Below, piece after piece: positions 26,899 through 33,072 of a stretch of DNA of 64,000 nucleotides. A program made the translations under genes and the position numbers. Below the pieces are notes generated by a model. That model was given only the letters and a program-made list of their open reading frames with translations. It was not told the origin of the DNA and ran no database searches. Every line of letters begins with the position of its first letter. Position 1 is the first letter of the stretch. This DNA comes from Candidatus Methanogaster sp. (GTDB lineage Archaea > Halobacteriota > Methanosarcinia > Methanosarcinales > Methanogasteraceae), in the NCBI GenBank assembly GCA_003194445.1, contig PQXF01000008.1, positions 1 through 64,000 on the forward strand, read 5' to 3'.

Positions 26899-27306
26899 AT
26901 GGGTGTCGAAGAATTGATGCAGGAAGTCGTAGAGCAACTTGAAAAACTGGTTACCACCAAGACCATCGTCGGTGAGCCAATCACAGTAGCAGGCAAAACC
27001 GTGGTACCGATCAGCAAGGTGTCATTCGGATTTGGCAGTGCTGGAGGAGAGGGTAAGCGCGGTGAGGAAGGTGGTTTCGGTGGCGGCGGTGGCGGTGGCG
27101 CAAAGATCGAGCCGGTTGCATTCCTCGTGGTATCAGAAGACGAGGTCAAACTGTTCCCAGCAACAGGAAAGGGCATAGACCTCGGAAAGATCGTGGAAGC
27201 TGTGCCTGAAGTCGTGGATAAGCTAAAATCCCTGAGAGGAAAGAAGGGAAGGGAGACAGAGAAGACAACGGAGAAGGAGCCGGAAAAATCCGCAGACGAG
27301 GATTGA
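26899..27306 (+). CDS. GerW/YtfJ family protein
   Basis: A 135-residue protein with the YtfJ pattern: LEKLVTTKTIVGEPITVAGK, TVVPISKVSFGFGSAGGEG, a long Gly-rich stretch, then IEPVAFLVVSEDEVKLFP. The C-terminal tail is Lys/Glu-rich and disordered. In Bacillus this family is needed for spore germination, but it is widespread in non-spore formers and archaea with unknown role. AGAGGTG precedes the ATG. It is followed by a DUF2953 gene, the same pairing (ytfJ-ytfI) found in Firmicutes. Confidence 0.9.
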   Translation: MGVEELMQEVVEQLEKLVTTKTIVGEPITVAGKTVVPISKVSFGFGSAGGEGKRGEEGGFGGGGGGGAKIEPVAFLVVSEDEVKLFPATGKGIDLGKIVEAVPEVVDKLKSLRGKKGRETEKTTEKEPEKSADED

Positions 27307-27319
27307 GGGGAGTGGTATC

Positions 27320-27967
27320 TTGCACCTATCCCTTCTTATTTTTTTATTGCTTGTCATATCAACGCTTACGCTTGCACTGATGCTTCTGTTATGGATTCCG
27401 TTCGTTTTCCGGTTTGAACTGAAGCGAGACCCTGACAGCGATCCCGTGCAGAGAATCGAGATGCGATGGCTGTTTTTATCCCATGTCATCGATGGTTTCG
27501 CAGCCACCGGGCAAGAAGACCGGAGAGAGGAGAAGGAGGATGCGAAAATGGACATCAAGCGCATCTTTGAACTGTTCCGCACGCTATACCGTCCTGTGAC
27601 CACGCTGGCGCGGAGGGTGGTGCAGAAAATCGATTTCAGGGAGATTTCATGCCGCGCAACGTTCGGACTCGATGATCCCGCCGATACCGGCATGTTATCA
27701 GGGTTTCTGTACGCGGCTTTTGTCCCACTGACTCGTTATCCTGCTATCTCGATCCGGCTACAGCCGGTCTTTCATGAGCCGGCATTCGCATACTGCGTCA
27801 GGGGTTCGCTTGGGGTAACGGTTGGGCGAATGATCATTCCTGCCATCAGGTTCCTATGCGACAGCGCGGTTCGCGGGGTGATCGTGGGGCGTATCCGTGG
27901 TTCTTTGTCATCTTCTGGCGGTGTGCTTGGACGGGGGGCGCGGAAGCGCTTGCCGGGTGGTTGTTAG
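27320..27967 (+). CDS. DUF2953 (YtfI-like) membrane-anchored protein
   Basis: Starts with TTG (GAGGGGAGTGG upstream), 215 residues. An N-terminal helix (LSLLIFLLLVISTLTLALMLLLW) anchors the protein; the later block CRATFGLDDPADTGMLSGFLYAA and ISIRLQPVFHEPAFAYCVRGSL are DUF2953 signatures. It is partner of the preceding GerW-like gene, 13 bases away. Role unknown, presumably at the membrane. Confidence 0.85.
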   Translation: MHLSLLIFLLLVISTLTLALMLLLWIPFVFRFELKRDPDSDPVQRIEMRWLFLSHVIDGFAATGQEDRREEKEDAKMDIKRIFELFRTLYRPVTTLARRVVQKIDFREISCRATFGLDDPADTGMLSGFLYAAFVPLTRYPAISIRLQPVFHEPAFAYCVRGSLGVTVGRMIIPAIRFLCDSAVRGVIVGRIRGSLSSSGGVLGRGARKRLPGGC

Positions 27968-28035
27968 CCGGAGGTGGCTAATCATATTTTTTGATTTTAT
28001 GCGTTGCTTATTGCAAACAACTTTGCGACACAAAG

Positions 28036-28080
28036 CATTATATATTACAAACTCCTTTACGTTAATGTACGGAGGTACAT
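28036..28080 (+). promoter_or_regulatory. Promoter and inverted repeat before the membrane-protein array
   Basis: TATA-like CATTATATATT (28036-28046) predicts a start near 28070. There, ATGTAC (28065-28070) and GTACAT (28075-28080) form a perfect six-base inverted repeat around GGAG, so it straddles both the likely transcription start and the ribosome site. It is a candidate operator for the winged-helix regulator at the end of the array. Confidence 0.5.
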
Positions 28081-28083
28081 ATC

Positions 28084-28704
28084 ATGACACAAGAAATCAA
28101 TCTCAAAGAACTCGAGAAGAAGGCATTTCGGTCATACCACGAGGACGGCATCTGGGACATATTCCTGGGACTTATAATGATGGCAATGGCGGTCAACGCA
28201 TTTCTCTCAAAGATCGGCGTTCCTGAGCTGCAGACAATGATAGCGTTCATCGGGCTGGAGCTGGTGGCGGTAATATTCCTGATCGCCGGCAAGAAGCGCA
28301 TCACAGTCCCCCGGATCGGGCATGTCAAATTCGGCAAGACGCGCAGAGCAAAACTTACAAAAGTGAAGATAGTGCTGGCGCTTTCTGTGATTTTCGGTCT
28401 GGTTGCGCTTGCCCTGGGGATCATCATGCAGGGTGACTCGTCCGGAGTTCTGTTACCGCTCGCATGGATGGTAAATGCTCTCATCGTCTTTAGCGTGATG
28501 GCGTATTTCATGGATTTCCCGCGCCTCTACATAATCGGCATATTATATGCAATGGTATTACCAATCGATGTAGCACTCCATGAGTTCGGTATCGCCTACA
28601 TAATCTTTGGCATCGCTGCCACAATCATTCTTGTTATGGGGCTTGTCATCCTGTCCCGGTTCCTGCGTGATCATCCGCTGCCTGCAGAGGGGGTCGAACT
28701 ATGA
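28084..28704 (+). CDS. Tandem-array membrane protein, copy 1
   Basis: 206 residues with about six membrane helices. The shared family frame is an N-terminal amphipathic segment (LKELEKKAFRSYHEDGIWDI), a basic loop after helix 2 (KKRITVPRIGHVKFGKTRRAK) and the ending SRFLRDHPLPAEG. All five array members share this frame. No characterised family is recognised. GGAGG precedes the ATG; the stop overlaps the next start by four bases. Confidence 0.8.
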   Translation: MTQEINLKELEKKAFRSYHEDGIWDIFLGLIMMAMAVNAFLSKIGVPELQTMIAFIGLELVAVIFLIAGKKRITVPRIGHVKFGKTRRAKLTKVKIVLALSVIFGLVALALGIIMQGDSSGVLLPLAWMVNALIVFSVMAYFMDFPRLYIIGILYAMVLPIDVALHEFGIAYIIFGIAATIILVMGLVILSRFLRDHPLPAEGVEL

Positions 28705-29299
28705 CCCGAGCTATTGATCTGAAAGAACTCGAGAAGAAGGCATGGACATCTATTTTTGAAGATGGAATTGCCGACATAGGACTCGGTCTTCTACTCACTG
28801 TGGCAACAATTTGCCAGATATTTAATGAGAGCAGTCTTTATCTGTATTCATTATTCATAGTACCGGCACTGTTTATCATTATAGCAAAGCGATACATTAC
28901 AGCCCCCAGGATGGGGGTTGTAAAATTTAGCAGGGAGCGTACCAGAAAGAGGTTAGGCTTATATTAGTCATGACAATTTCAATTGTTTTTCTCCTGATAC
29001 TGACGGCAATAGGATCGCTTCAACGACTACCGATGGCACCAGTGGTAGTCGGAGCGATAGTCTTCATCATCCCCTGTTCAATTGCATACTTTTGGAACTG
29101 GGACCGGATGTATCTCTATGCTGTCCTGTTTACAGTATCTTTTACACTCAATGAGATAACAATAGCCGATACCGGAGTCATCGCAAGTGGTGCATACGCC
29201 TGGCTGATTTCAGGAATAATCATGATAGCGATCGGGGTTGTGTATCTGGTTAGATTTCTGCGTAAATATCCGCTGCCCGCGGAGGGGGCAGAGGCATGA
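28701..29299 (+). pseudogene. Tandem-array membrane protein, copy 2, frameshifted
   Basis: Both halves match the paralogues: the first (28701-28967) has LKELEKKAWTSIFEDGIADI through RYITAPRMGVVKFSRERTRK, the second (28970-29299) has helices 3-6 and ends VRFLRKYPLPAEG. They are in different frames, broken in the basic loop around 28945-28955. Joined, they give the normal length of about 199 residues. Either a genuine single-base loss or a base-calling error; each half could also be translated separately because an ATG opens the second. Confidence 0.7.
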
Positions 29300-29916
29300 C
29301 TCAGGATATTAACCCGAAAGAACTCGAGAAAAAGGTCTACAGGTCATATCACCGGGATGGTATTCTGGATATCTCACTTGGTTTATTGATACTTCTATTT
29401 GGCATTGCCATGTACACTCATCTGATTCCTTTTGTAGGTTTGATTCCCATCATGGTGATGAGTGCAGGATACTTAGCCAAGAAATTTGTCATAATTCCCC
29501 GAATGGGTCATGTCAACTTCAGCAATGCACGAAAAGAAAAAGAGAGAGGGAAAATGTCTTTCTGGCTGGTTCTGGGAATTGTGGTTCTTGGAGCCGTTTT
29601 GGTTGGACTTGCTAAAAGAAACATTTTGCCGGGATTGGACTCTGTGCTGCAAACATATCCTCTGCTGGCTCTGGCTGTGATAGTCTCCTCACTGATCATC
29701 GCCGCAGCACTCATGTTTGGGGCCGTCCATCTGTACGCCTACGCAGCACTGGTTTTGATAGTCCTTGTTCCGTGTCAATCCATCTATGCTCCAGAGCCGC
29801 ACAGGGTCGTTTTCGCAGGCACATTTATCCTGCTCTGCGGGCTGTTAACATTTATTCGGTTTTTGCGTAAGTATCCGCTGCCGGAAAAGGAGGCATCCGA
29901 TGTCAGCCACAATTGA
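29296..29916 (+). CDS. Tandem-array membrane protein, copy 3
   Basis: 206 residues; PKELEKKVYRSYHRDGILDI at the N-terminus, VIIPRMGHVNFSNARKEKER in the loop, and IRFLRKYPLPEKE at the end. Its start overlaps copy 2 by four bases. The codons for PEKE contain AAAAGGAGG, which acts as ribosome site for copy 4, whose start lies inside this gene (17-base overlap). Confidence 0.8.
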   Translation: MTQDINPKELEKKVYRSYHRDGILDISLGLLILLFGIAMYTHLIPFVGLIPIMVMSAGYLAKKFVIIPRMGHVNFSNARKEKERGKMSFWLVLGIVVLGAVLVGLAKRNILPGLDSVLQTYPLLALAVIVSSLIIAAALMFGAVHLYAYAALVLIVLVPCQSIYAPEPHRVVFAGTFILLCGLLTFIRFLRKYPLPEKEASDVSHN

Positions 29917-30532
29917 CCTGTCCAAGATCGAGAAAAAGGCATATCGTGATTCTCAGCAGGATGGGATCATGGAGCTTGTAATCGGGCTCTTTCTTGTTAT
30001 TATGGTTGTGCCGCAGATCAATTTAAACTACGTCTTTCTGGTACTCCTCTTACCCCCTATGTTTACGTTCATTATCGAGCGACTGCGGAAGAGGTACAGC
30101 TATCCCAGAATCGGCTATGTCAAACTCCATACCGACCCACCGAAGGAGACTGCAAAAGGAATCTTCACTTACATGATAGCAGTGCTTGTGGTTGTAGCAA
30201 TTATCTCATTTATCATATCCGGCGATATGGCAGGCCTTGAACGCTGTGTCAAATGGTCTCCGGCATTTGTTGGGTTTACATTGGTAGGAGCATTTCACTA
30301 TATGGCATCCAAGTCAGGAAGCGTTCGTTTCCATCTCTTTGCCGTCGTGTCCGCAACACTCGGATTTATCCTGTCGATGGTTGACTTTGATTCGGAGTTC
30401 AACTTCGGCGTAATCATCTATCTCCTCATCATGGGGGGACTTTTGGTGATTTCCGGGATTGTGAGGTTCATCCGGTTCCTGCACATGTATCCGCTGCCGG
30501 AAAAGGAGGTCTCCGATGTCAACACAAATTGA
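29900..30532 (+). CDS. Tandem-array membrane protein, copy 4
   Basis: 210 residues with the shared frame: LSKIEKKAYRDSQQDGIMEL, RKRYSYPRIGYVKLHTDPPK and IRFLHMYPLPEKE. It is most like copy 5 (both have DSQQDG and MASKSGSVR-type loops), suggesting the latest duplication. As in copy 3 its final codons carry the ribosome site of the next gene. Confidence 0.8.
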   Translation: MSATIDLSKIEKKAYRDSQQDGIMELVIGLFLVIMVVPQINLNYVFLVLLLPPMFTFIIERLRKRYSYPRIGYVKLHTDPPKETAKGIFTYMIAVLVVVAIISFIISGDMAGLERCVKWSPAFVGFTLVGAFHYMASKSGSVRFHLFAVVSATLGFILSMVDFDSEFNFGVIIYLLIMGGLLVISGIVRFIRFLHMYPLPEKEVSDVNTN

Positions 30533-31136
30533 TCTGCTCAAGATCGGGAAGAAGGCATACAAAGACTCCCAGCAGGACGGCTTGATGGAAATCATGATGG
30601 GACTGATCCTCATGACTTTCGGTGGATTTTTCTATTCTCCGATCTTTGCATTCTATATATTATTGATAGTATTCTCTGGAAAGATCGTAGAGTTCGTCCG
30701 AAGACGGTACACACATCCCAGAATCGGGTTTGTTAGATTCCACCGGGAAAATCCAAAGGATGCCCTGACAGGCGTCTTTCTCTTCGAACTTTCAGTCATC
30801 GTGATCATCTTCACCCTGATCTCTATATTTGGCAATGTAACGGATTATTCTAGTTGGGTGAATTGGGCGCCGTTATTCTTCGGGATGATTCTGGTCGGAC
30901 CCTTCGCCCACGCAGCATCCAAATCGGGAAGTGTCCGTTATTCCGGATATGCTATCCTGTCAGTGATTCTTGGGATATTATTCTCTTTAATAGAATTTGG
31001 ATCCGGATGTACCGGATTGATACTGTATCTGAGTCTCATAGGGGGATTCTTAGTCCTTGGCGGTCTGGCAATCTTCATACGCTTCCTGCGCAAATATCCG
31101 CTGCCGGAGACGGGGGTGCGTGATGGCAGCAAGTGA
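30516..31136 (+). CDS. Tandem-array membrane protein, copy 5
   Basis: 206 residues with LLKIGKKAYKDSQQDGLMEI, RRRYTHPRIGFVRFHRENPK and IRFLRKYPLPETG. The last 14 bases overlap the winged-helix regulator, so the whole set is one translationally coupled operon. Confidence 0.8.
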   Translation: MSTQIDLLKIGKKAYKDSQQDGLMEIMMGLILMTFGGFFYSPIFAFYILLIVFSGKIVEFVRRRYTHPRIGFVRFHRENPKDALTGVFLFELSVIVIIFTLISIFGNVTDYSSWVNWAPLFFGMILVGPFAHAASKSGSVRYSGYAILSVILGILFSLIEFGSGCTGLILYLSLIGGFLVLGGLAIFIRFLRKYPLPETGVRDGSK

Positions 31137-31440
31137 AACCGGTAGCGAAGACCTCCGACCCATCGCTGGAATCGACCGCTTGATCCACGAGCCGGCAAGG
31201 CTAATGATCATGGCATACCTCTACGTCGTCGAGAGCGCAGACTTTCTCTTCCTGATGCGCCAGACCGGGCTTACGGCTGGCAATCTCTCATCGCATACAA
31301 GCAAGCTTGAGGCTGCCGGGTACATCGAGGTCGTGAAGGAGTTTGTGGACAGAAAGCCGCATACGATGCTCCGGCTGACCGGTGCGGGCAGGGATGCATT
31401 TCAGGGGTATCGGGAGGGGATGATGCAGGTTCTTCGATGA
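31123..31440 (+). CDS. Winged-helix transcriptional regulator of the array
   Basis: 105 residues. RLIHEPARLMIMAYLYVVES begins the domain, followed by the recognition-helix region MRQTGLTAGNLSSHTSKLEA and the wing GYIEVVKEFVDRKPHTMLRL, the ArsR/MarR-like HTH_34 type often encoded beside small membrane proteins. It is coupled to the array by overlap and probably regulates it, maybe at the inverted repeat 28065-28080. A degraded partial duplicate lies at 32278-32512. Confidence 0.88.
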   Translation: MAASETGSEDLRPIAGIDRLIHEPARLMIMAYLYVVESADFLFLMRQTGLTAGNLSSHTSKLEAAGYIEVVKEFVDRKPHTMLRLTGAGRDAFQGYREGMMQVLR

Positions 31441-31644: not shown

Positions 31645-31920
31645 ATGAAGATTCGGTTTTACATGGACCCGAAGACAAACACCTCACACATCCACCGCCA
31701 TAAAGTAACCGAACAGGAAGTGGAAGATGTCCTATCGCATCCCGGTGAAGACCGCATTGGGCACGAGGGGGTACGAGTTGCCATTGGTCAGACCCGATCC
31801 GGCAGGTACCTTCGTGTCATCTATGTGCCAGAACCAGAGAGTATATTTGTGATAACCGCATACAATTTATCAGGAAAAGCACTGATAGCTTACCGAAGAC
31901 GTATCAAAAGGAGAAAATGA
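31645..31920 (+). CDS. DUF4258 (RelE/BrnT-like) putative toxin
   Basis: A 91-residue protein: HIHRHKVTEQEVEDVLSHPG, VRVAIGQTRSGRYLRVIYV and FVITAYNLSGKALIAYRRRI are the DUF4258 pattern seen in toxin-like small proteins paired with an antitoxin. The basic C-terminus (YRRRIKRRK) fits an RNase toxin. The ATG at 31645 follows a TATA box closely. It overlaps the downstream small gene by four bases. Toxicity is inferred from family and pairing. Confidence 0.8.
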   Translation: MKIRFYMDPKTNTSHIHRHKVTEQEVEDVLSHPGEDRIGHEGVRVAIGQTRSGRYLRVIYVPEPESIFVITAYNLSGKALIAYRRRIKRRK

Positions 31921-32141
31921 GACAGAATAAACTCCCATCAGGATGGAATGAAGAGCGGGTACAGCGTGTTTTAGCGCATTATGAGAGCCAGACTGACGAA
32001 GAAGCCGTTGCCGAAGACGAAGCTGCTTATGAAGGTTCCGGAGATACGTTTATGAAAATTCCATACAAATTGGTCCCCATTGTCCGTGATCTGATTGCGC
32101 AGACCAATTCTGCCGAACATGCGAAAAAGCTAGACGTGTAG
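31917..32141 (+). CDS. Putative antitoxin of the DUF4258 pair
   Basis: A 74-residue acidic protein with GWNEERVQRVLAHYESQTDE and EAVAEDEAAYEG, a pattern common to short antitoxins found behind DUF4258 proteins. Start overlaps the toxin stop (ATGA). The toxin-first order differs from VapBC but is usual for this type. Confidence 0.75.
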   Translation: MRQNKLPSGWNEERVQRVLAHYESQTDEEAVAEDEAAYEGSGDTFMKIPYKLVPIVRDLIAQTNSAEHAKKLDV

Positions 32142-32277: not shown

Positions 32278-32512
32278 AGCGAAGACCTCAGAGCCCAATC
32301 GCGGGAATCGACCGCATGATCCACGAACCGGCAAGGCTCATGATTATGGCATATCCCTATATCGCCCGGGAACGCCGGCTTCCTCTTCGTGATGCGCCAG
32401 ACCGGGCTTACGGCTGGCAATCTCTCCTCGCATACAAGCAAGCTTGAGGCTGCCGGGTACATCGAGGTCGCGGGAGGAGTTTGTGGACAGAAAGCCGCAT
32501 ACGATGCTCCGG
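32278..32512 (+). pseudogene. Degraded duplicate of the winged-helix regulator gene
   Basis: Matches 31144-31374 at most positions (the stretches around GATCCACGA, TGCGCCAGACCGGGC and AAGCCGCATACGATGCTCC are the same) but has small indels in several places, so the frame is broken. It lacks the first codons and the 3' end. The DUF4258 pair lies between the intact gene and this copy. Confidence 0.85.
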
Positions 32513-33072
32513 ATGAAATAAGGAATATGGGGGAGACACTGCAATTAAAAATTAATGAAGAGAGAATATATAGGGAGAAGTCAACAATTGAAAAAGGAAC
32601 ACGAAGACTGTCTGAACATGATATGCAATCTCTAAAGAGCACTCAAAAAGGAAATAAATAGTATTAAAAAGAAGATAACGAAGATAGAAAAAAATCACCT
32701 GAAACAGTTTACCTCACTGAAGAAAAAAAGAGATGAACTTGCAAGAATCATAGATAAGAAGAAGATATATAGTGTGGATGTAGAGCTGGACCAGATAATG
32801 ACATGTTTCAAGATTTCCTTTGCGAATATCTGCTGTTACATGCCGGATGAATATTTAAACGGTGAGAAAATGACACTACAACGGCTTTTTGAGGTGATAT
32901 TTGATCTTTAAGGTACCGTAAGAATCGAAAATGGATGCCGAAATATATTTATAAAGAAAAATCCAAAACAACGGGATATCATGAAGAAATTAGAATCGGC
33001 ACTCGATTCAATTAATTGTATGAGGATTAAAGATTTGAATGGATGTATATATAACTTCAAGCTTCTCTAATT
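32513..33072 (+). pseudogene. Transposase C-terminal remnant with in-frame stops
   Basis: AT-rich, Lys-rich reading frame ending at 33070. Pieces such as QLKKEHEDCLNMICNL, LKKKRDELARIIDKKKIYSV, FANICCYMPDEYLNG and, after a stop, NPKQRDIMKKLESALDSINC and IKDLNGCIYNFKLL can be read. The last piece resembles the tail of archaeal transposases. No DDE residues are visible. Base composition is far from its neighbours, pointing to foreign DNA. Confidence 0.5.

Follow-up and report, generated by a model that had tools for sequence, protein, structure and literature searches.

An unnamed membrane protein family with a fixed winged-helix regulator and a predicted operator common to archaea and bacteria

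The ytrA operon of Bacillus is an autoregulated exporter operon, in which a small regulator encoded inside the operon represses it. Here we analysed a stretch of 64,000 nucleotides of Candidatus Methanogaster sp. (GCA_003194445.1, contig PQXF01000008.1, positions 1 to 64,000; hereafter the window), in which five tandem genes for a membrane protein (M) and a gene for a winged-helix regulator (H) lie on the + strand and form one operon. The regulator of the ytrA operon belongs to a different family from H, and the constant partner of H is an unnamed membrane family. H passed the threshold of the HTH_34 family (PF13601) with 94.2 bits against a cut-off of 27, and its residues 18-98 aligned with PH1061 of Pyrococcus (PDB 1ub9, E 4e-7). 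H differs from PH1061 in being tied to M and to a defined palindrome, whereas our searches showed no operator or partner genes for PH1061.

Stf76 of the plasmid-virus pSSVx is a small archaeal winged-helix protein that is reported to recognise two sites of its own promoter, suggesting autoregulation (PMC4027180). By description, H resembles Stf76 as a small archaeal winged-helix protein for which autoregulation is suggested; the opening of its abstract mentions no membrane-protein partner, unlike the pairing of H with M. The abstract openings retrieved for HTH_34, PH1061, autoregulated MarR-type archaeal operators and CPBP/ABC contained nothing on the M-H system. With M-H, a membrane protein family without a name is described together with its fixed regulator. 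We consider it reasonably probable, judging from sequence, that the module is a self-regulated membrane-protein operon, in which H represses and M serves as a membrane effector or as an exporter or stress-response accessory. The regulatory part of this prediction is well supported.

The M-H operon and its conservation

The genes of the operon are as follows (ORF, open reading frame; pLDDT, predicted local distance difference test; pTM, predicted template modelling score).

28084-28704, + strand: M copy 1, six-helix membrane protein of 206 residues (ORF; model pLDDT 92.1, pTM 0.85)
28701-29299, + strand: M copy 2, split by a frameshift into 28701-28967 and 28970-29299 (ORFs; intact counterpart L031:6067-6705)
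29296-29916, + strand: M copy 3, 206 residues (ORF, homology, tree)
29900-30532, + strand: M copy 4, 210 residues (ORF, homology, tree)
30516-31136, + strand: M copy 5, 206 residues (ORF, tree; model pLDDT 78.3, pTM 0.72)
31123-31440, + strand: H, HTH_34 winged-helix regulator of 105 residues (PF13601, 94.2 bits; PDB 1ub9 match)

The initial annotation had proposed five membrane-protein copies coupled to a winged-helix regulator. The array is real at 28084-31440, with one copy frameshifted, and the coupling is strongly conserved. H stood after the last M in 100 of 107 rows, or 100 of the 102 that could be evaluated; rows overlap between searches. Five of the seven rows without H end within 103 bases of M, and the other two (loci L135 and L138 in our numbering) are misses. 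The H of the Lokiarchaeota locus L040 scored 87.7 bits against HTH_34. H is nearly all winged helix, and it also showed a weak PADLOC match to Csa3 (E 1.4e-5).

Every junction along the array is a start-stop overlap, of 4, 4, 17, 17 and 14 bases in order, the last between copy 5 and H. This agrees with the overlaps of 4 to 17 bases described initially, with the correction that copy 2 is not intact. The frameshift leaves pieces of 88 and 109 residues in copy 2, and the counterpart, matched by eye, is intact in L031, L035 and L036; either gene loss in the window's strain or an assembly error produced the break. The 17-base overlap recurs in the same three loci. Because the genes overlap, ribosome sites are coded within C-terminal codons, as first described: AAAAGGAGG codes part of PEKE at the C-terminal ends of copies 3 and 4 and stops 6 bases before the next ATG. 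M-M junctions elsewhere are short overlaps in the Thermoplasmata loci L038 and L039 and short gaps in the Lokiarchaeota loci L040 and L045, and the coupling style is therefore not constant across the M family. Copy 1 has identities of 40, 26 and 32% to the other intact copies. The N-terminal frame xxLEKKAxxSxxxDGI, initially described as shared by all copies, is not: copy 3 has LEKKV, copy 4 has IEKKAYRDSQQDG and copy 5 has IGKKAYKDSQQDG.

A predicted operator of H

Two features lie upstream of the operon.

28014-28051, + strand: proposed operator region, with the palindrome CTTTG-N5-CAAAG (28021-28035) and CAAA half sites at 28014 and 28048 (recurrence before M-H operons)
28038-28045, + strand: TATA box TTATATAT, directly after the palindrome (by eye; five TATA columns invariant in 11 sequences)

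The palindrome reads CTTTGCGACACAAAG in the window and stands directly before the TATA box. CAAA occurs at 28014, 28031 and 28048, with a 17-base spacing. The CAAA columns, CTTTG and the five TATA columns are invariant in 11 aligned sequences (window included), and transcription would start near 28065. The exact palindrome was found once in the window, against a chance mean of 0.06. A wider regulon was not indicated in the own 3.6 Mb genome, where three exact places were found vs 10 in the reversed control.

Usable upstream sequence was present in 30 of 33 discovery loci (L042, L056 and L062 were dropped). In 16 of the 30, the exact CTTTG-N5-CAAAG occurred in the 150 bases that precede the first M, and the reversed and complemented controls gave 0. 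These 16 loci comprise 11 from the window and its close kin, three Thermoplasmata and two Longilinea. Six exact copies were found elsewhere in the discovery loci, including two doubled sites before longer Asgard operons; the copies elsewhere in L038 and L049 look like chance. The variant GTTTG-N5-CAAAC was exact in three discovery loci (L033, L041 and L061). Separately, we observed two operators, some 50 bases from each other, ahead of longer Asgard operons in L034 (1932/1982), L040 (622/672) and L170 (1581/1632).

A blind count of 1,024 half sites at spacers 0-11 was made in 35 held-out loci, after the duplicates L136 and L139 and rows with less than 150 bases upstream had been dropped. At spacer 5, CTTTG ranked first (9 loci) and GTTTG second (5 loci), with all others at 2 or fewer. 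At the other spacers the best count was 7, given by ACTTT at spacer 7 (the same site shifted by one base), followed by 5 at spacer 0. Twenty longer stretches of the Asgard phylum, chosen by us out of 66 positive genomes, were then compared. Upstream sequence was available in 18, and the site stood ahead of the operon or between divergent genes in 15, namely before 10 of 11 ABC/CPBP-led operons, before M alone in 2, and between divergent ABC and M genes in 3 of 3. As judged by eye in bacterial loci, the site follows a TATAAT-like box in L049 (with one site mismatch) and L061, a position that fits repression. The extended operator matched 54 stretches in viral contigs, none with M or H.

The core TTTG-N5-CAAA lay within 200 bases of the first M in 39 of 73 deduplicated rows; rows without H or with less than 60 bases upstream had been left out of this set. 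The outer base pair of the operator changes with one residue of the recognition helix of H. With K, R or Q before the GN of this helix, the site was GTTTG...CAAAC in 7/7 rows, and with other residues in 0/30. Two further rows were unreadable (repeats of other loci with H cut short), and the Fisher p of 6.5e-8 counts these two and ignores kinship. The Longilinea genome G441 carries both types, with W and CTTTG in L044 and K and GTTTG in L137 / L240.

These results indicate that 28014-28051 is the likely operator of H. The self-control suggested by the initial annotation is well supported, and would act through this region and not through 28060-28085, where binding had been expected. That gene sets of this kind in widely differing archaea and bacteria have the operator in common suggests a membrane response under its own control.

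Protein M and the history of its copies

M has about 206 residues, and the models of copies 1 and 5 showed six long helices preceded by a short N-terminal one. The M copies of the window gave nothing above cut-off against Pfam and NCBIfam profiles, in agreement with the first description of the proteins as unknown membrane proteins. Among 51 M members compared with Pfam, no family was assignable; matches to four families were seen, each with a single member (best E 0.001). A sequence search of M against solved structures gave no family. Fold searches with the models of copies 1 and 5 against solved structures gave nothing significant, with a best Foldseek E of 0.13 (YiiP) for copy 1. In the VIA comparison, copy 1 matched ZnT7 with Z 7.7 (121 residues, root-mean-square deviation 4.8) and succinate-acetate permease with Z 7.6 (133 residues, deviation 4.9), and the matches to ZnT7, succinate-acetate permease and TMEM45A spanned Z 7.3-7.7. 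Matches to SatP-like or ZnT/YiiP folds at this level lie in the range expected of common helical arrangements. No ABC-2 permease appeared among the fold-search matches listed for the M models. The four intact M copies had no match in PADLOC (anti-phage defence) or PHROGs (phage proteins), and a search of viral contigs with copy 3 confirmed no M. Judging by its charges, M would have its N terminus, loops 2 and 4 and C terminus in the cytosol. Conservation is highest in the N terminus, loop 2 and C terminus, and loop 4 is not among these best-conserved segments. M would function as a membrane effector or as an accessory of an export or membrane-stress response.

The spread of M is patchy, over archaea and some bacteria. 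The scan of genome contigs gave 32 M loci. Their archaeal hosts are Methanosarcinales, ANME-2 (anaerobic methanotrophic archaea), Methanophagales, Thermoplasmata, Methanomassiliicoccales and Lokiarchaeota, and their bacterial hosts are several Chloroflexota groups, Phycisphaerae, Gemmatimonadota and Zixibacteria. The nearest locus to the window is L031, of a Methanosarcinales archaeon. M was present in 16 of the 60 nearest genomes (own included). Phylum-wide, it was present in at least 10 of 392 genomes of the own phylum (own included), at least 16 of 301 of the phylum of Longilinea (centre genome included) and at least 66 of 195 of the phylum of Lokiarchaeota L045 (centre and three further known ones included); part of the candidates was scored in these three counts, which are lower bounds. 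Among 20 genomes searched whole, M stood at one place in 18 and at two places in G439 and G441, and several genomes of the 195-genome survey carry M on more than one contig.

The window holds five M copies and its relatives one to four (pieces counted). In a tree of 51 M proteins, from which copy 2 was left out as broken, copy 1 grouped with L031 (100/98) and then with a Phycisphaerae protein (100/99), and copy 3 grouped with a Chloroflexota protein (98/91). Copy 5 joined the H-adjacent copies of Methanosarcinales and Methanophagales (100/99), a subfamily that, in related loci of these groups, is the sole M or the last one next to the regulator. Copy 4 fell outside the copy 5 clade, and its Thermoplasmata partner was weakly supported (81/44). 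L031 has counterparts of copies 1, 2 and 5 only (tree and by eye). As the tree places the copies with separate distant relatives, the array is read as a collection of diverged old subfamilies with no recent amplification. Both main M branches are also combined in L031, L032, L035, L041 and L042, where the call for L041 rests on the join of two long branches (tool warning); other loci hold one branch only.

The initial annotation had suggested a hetero-oligomeric membrane complex. The age and divergence of the subfamilies, and the presence of diverged copies side by side in some other loci, make such a complex possible. It is not needed, because a single M with the regulator is common in relatives.

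Several further observations concern the copies and the neighbourhood of the operon. An M remnant in L050 (6001-6240) joins residues 1-35 to residues 165-206, as though a deletion had merged copies. A methyltransferase-like gene closely follows H in two distant lineages (L053 4591-5403 and L038 7506-8309). Just upstream of the array, at 26899-27967, lie GerW/YtfJ-like and DUF2953 genes, and DUF2953 is also upstream of M in L053; GerW/YtfJ and DUF2953 are known from spore formers. A second H has decayed downstream:

32292-32515, + strand: broken second H copy (relic), three pieces in different frames (homology)

Between H and this relic lies a small gene pair. Its first gene (31648-31920) is weakly like DUF4258/BrnT toxin, below cut-off, and the second (31917-32141) had no match. 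L062 has a similar small gene between H and a second H, which is nearly whole there (1755-2036); pieces of a second H occur in other relatives.

Exporter partners and competing explanations

The gene order in Lokiarchaeota L040 is Rce1/CPBP-type protease, small protein, ABC ATPase, permease, M, M, H. The ABC-2 match of the L040 permease was below cut-off, as were the drrA and NF041647 matches of this locus. A permease of the L040 type precedes M in all five Lokiarchaeota discovery loci, one of them partial, and CPBP-protease relatives occur in some Asgard loci. In three further Asgard-phylum stretches, the ABC pair is divergent from M-H across the operator. Ten Chloroflexota stretches were chosen out of 16 positive genomes, and 8 had an ABC ATPase after H; an ABC-2 permease came next in the two that were read further. 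Five of these 8 have the GTTTG site, and three have K but no core site found. The ABC ATPase of L248 lies about 300 bases beyond H, and no ABC ATPase was found after H in L245 and L246. L033 and L054 had weak ATPase matches only, on the other strand, and no ABC relatives were found in two stretches of the window's phylum (L250 and L251). Overall, ATPase and permease genes are present for Asgard and one Chloroflexota group and not in most other loci examined. DrrA/NatA-type ABC-2 exporters and the ABC permease/CPBP family NF041647 are comparable in that such genes share an operon or switch region with M-H in Asgard and some Chloroflexota, and the window differs in having no relative of them nearby.

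We propose, on the indirect evidence of a palindromic site and of covariation between residue and base, that a dimer of H would bind CTTTG-N5-CAAAG (or GTTTG-N5-CAAAC) at the promoter and block it, hindering access of TBP/TFB in archaea and of the polymerase in bacteria. The operon would stay off or low until a signal lifts H. M and H would then be produced jointly, with M acting in the membrane. In Asgard and one Chloroflexota group, the switch region would also serve a DrrA/NatA-type ABC-2 exporter. Because the switch is shared with the ABC-2 exporter and CPBP relatives, the response probably serves to export a membrane-active compound or to protect against one. In the window's lineage M itself would be the effector, acting alone, since no exporter is attached there. 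The different M copies may also pair among themselves, and a single copy would be enough in many relatives.

Several points weigh against this self-regulated operon. H has no sensor domain, and it could be an activator. No H lies near L135 and L138, nor near L022, an M fragment outside the 107-row count; these three M matches may be chance or fragments. The core site was absent within 200 bases of the first M in 34 of the 73 deduplicated rows, many of which are Asgard loci with the operon start further up; nine of the 34 have K or R, and the 34 speak neither for nor against the covariation. Still without a site are L032, L056, L123, L125, L128-L131, L133 and L134, and it was not found in the Asgard-phylum stretches L167, L176 and L184 (only about 490 bases in view in L184). 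Three of the 30 rows with residues other than K/R/Q (L035, L036 and L054) are mixed, with one half site ending in C and not G. The covariation amounts to about two changes on a regulator tree of few columns, and the independent evidence from it is therefore small. At E 1e-4 the 64 kb window yielded no relative of the L040 ATPase, permease or CPBP protein, and Chloroflexota L043, L044, L049 and L061 showed no relative of the Asgard ABC/CPBP proteins.

M might instead be a membrane sensor that captures H, holding it at the cytosolic face and taking it off or releasing it to DNA upon membrane disturbance. The constant adjacency of M to so small and nearly all-DNA-binding a regulator, while other partners vary, would fit such a sensor, as would the high conservation of the N terminus, loop 2 and C terminus, provided that the charges place these segments correctly in the cytosol. 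However, simple autoregulation also explains the adjacency, and five M per regulator is an odd stoichiometry for a sensor. We regard capture of H by M as conceivable and unlikely. A bolder version is just as speculative: M-H may be a new membrane-to-promoter signalling unit, in which M would control H through direct contact, paralogues would tune the unit to various membrane signals, and ABC exporters would be plug-in outputs, with an operator shared from Asgard and ANME-type archaea to Chloroflexota.

It is doubtful that M is an accessory or substitute membrane subunit of an ABC-2 exporter whose ATPase is gone in the window's lineage. ABC genes join M-H in differing arrangements in Asgard and some Chloroflexota loci, and the short N-terminal helix with six long helices would suit a subunit of this kind; yet the ABC operons already hold permease genes, the window has no ATPase relative, and the fold searches gave no significant match.

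Post-transcriptional control by a hairpin at the 5' end of the mRNA, gating the first ribosome site, appears very improbable. The feature concerned is the following.

28065-28080, + strand: inverted repeat ATGTAC-GGAG-GTACAT enclosing the first ribosome site; might fold into a weak 5' hairpin of the mRNA (pairing kept in 7/11 sequences)

The repeat is perfect and holds the first ribosome site, as the initial annotation stated, but its arms have 6 bp and it is kept in near relatives only. Seven of the 11 sequences, window included, keep all six pairs when G-U is allowed, which favours a hairpin; 5 of 6 are kept in L052 and L057, 4 in L059 and 3 in L060, and the repeat was not seen in more distant M-H loci. 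With only 6 bp and the ribosome site in the loop, it would make a poor gate. The repeat was also dropped as a regulator site, not being seen beyond near relatives; the cross-phylum site lies about 40 bases upstream of it.

We give almost no credence to ordinary tandem duplication beside an unrelated regulator without a common mechanism: copy number varies from 1 to 5, remnants exist and copy 2 is broken, but the copies are ancient subfamilies rather than local duplicates, and M-H adjacency and the operator recur across phyla.

In the favoured reading of a self-regulated operon, an unnamed membrane family and its fixed regulator have a predicted operator common to archaea and bacteria. The same site stands at the TATA box in archaea and beside promoter boxes, by eye, in bacteria. 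With the operator and the recognition-helix residue in hand, the prediction can be tested directly. The module may offer a first handle on the control of membrane stress and export in uncultured Asgard and ANME-type archaea.

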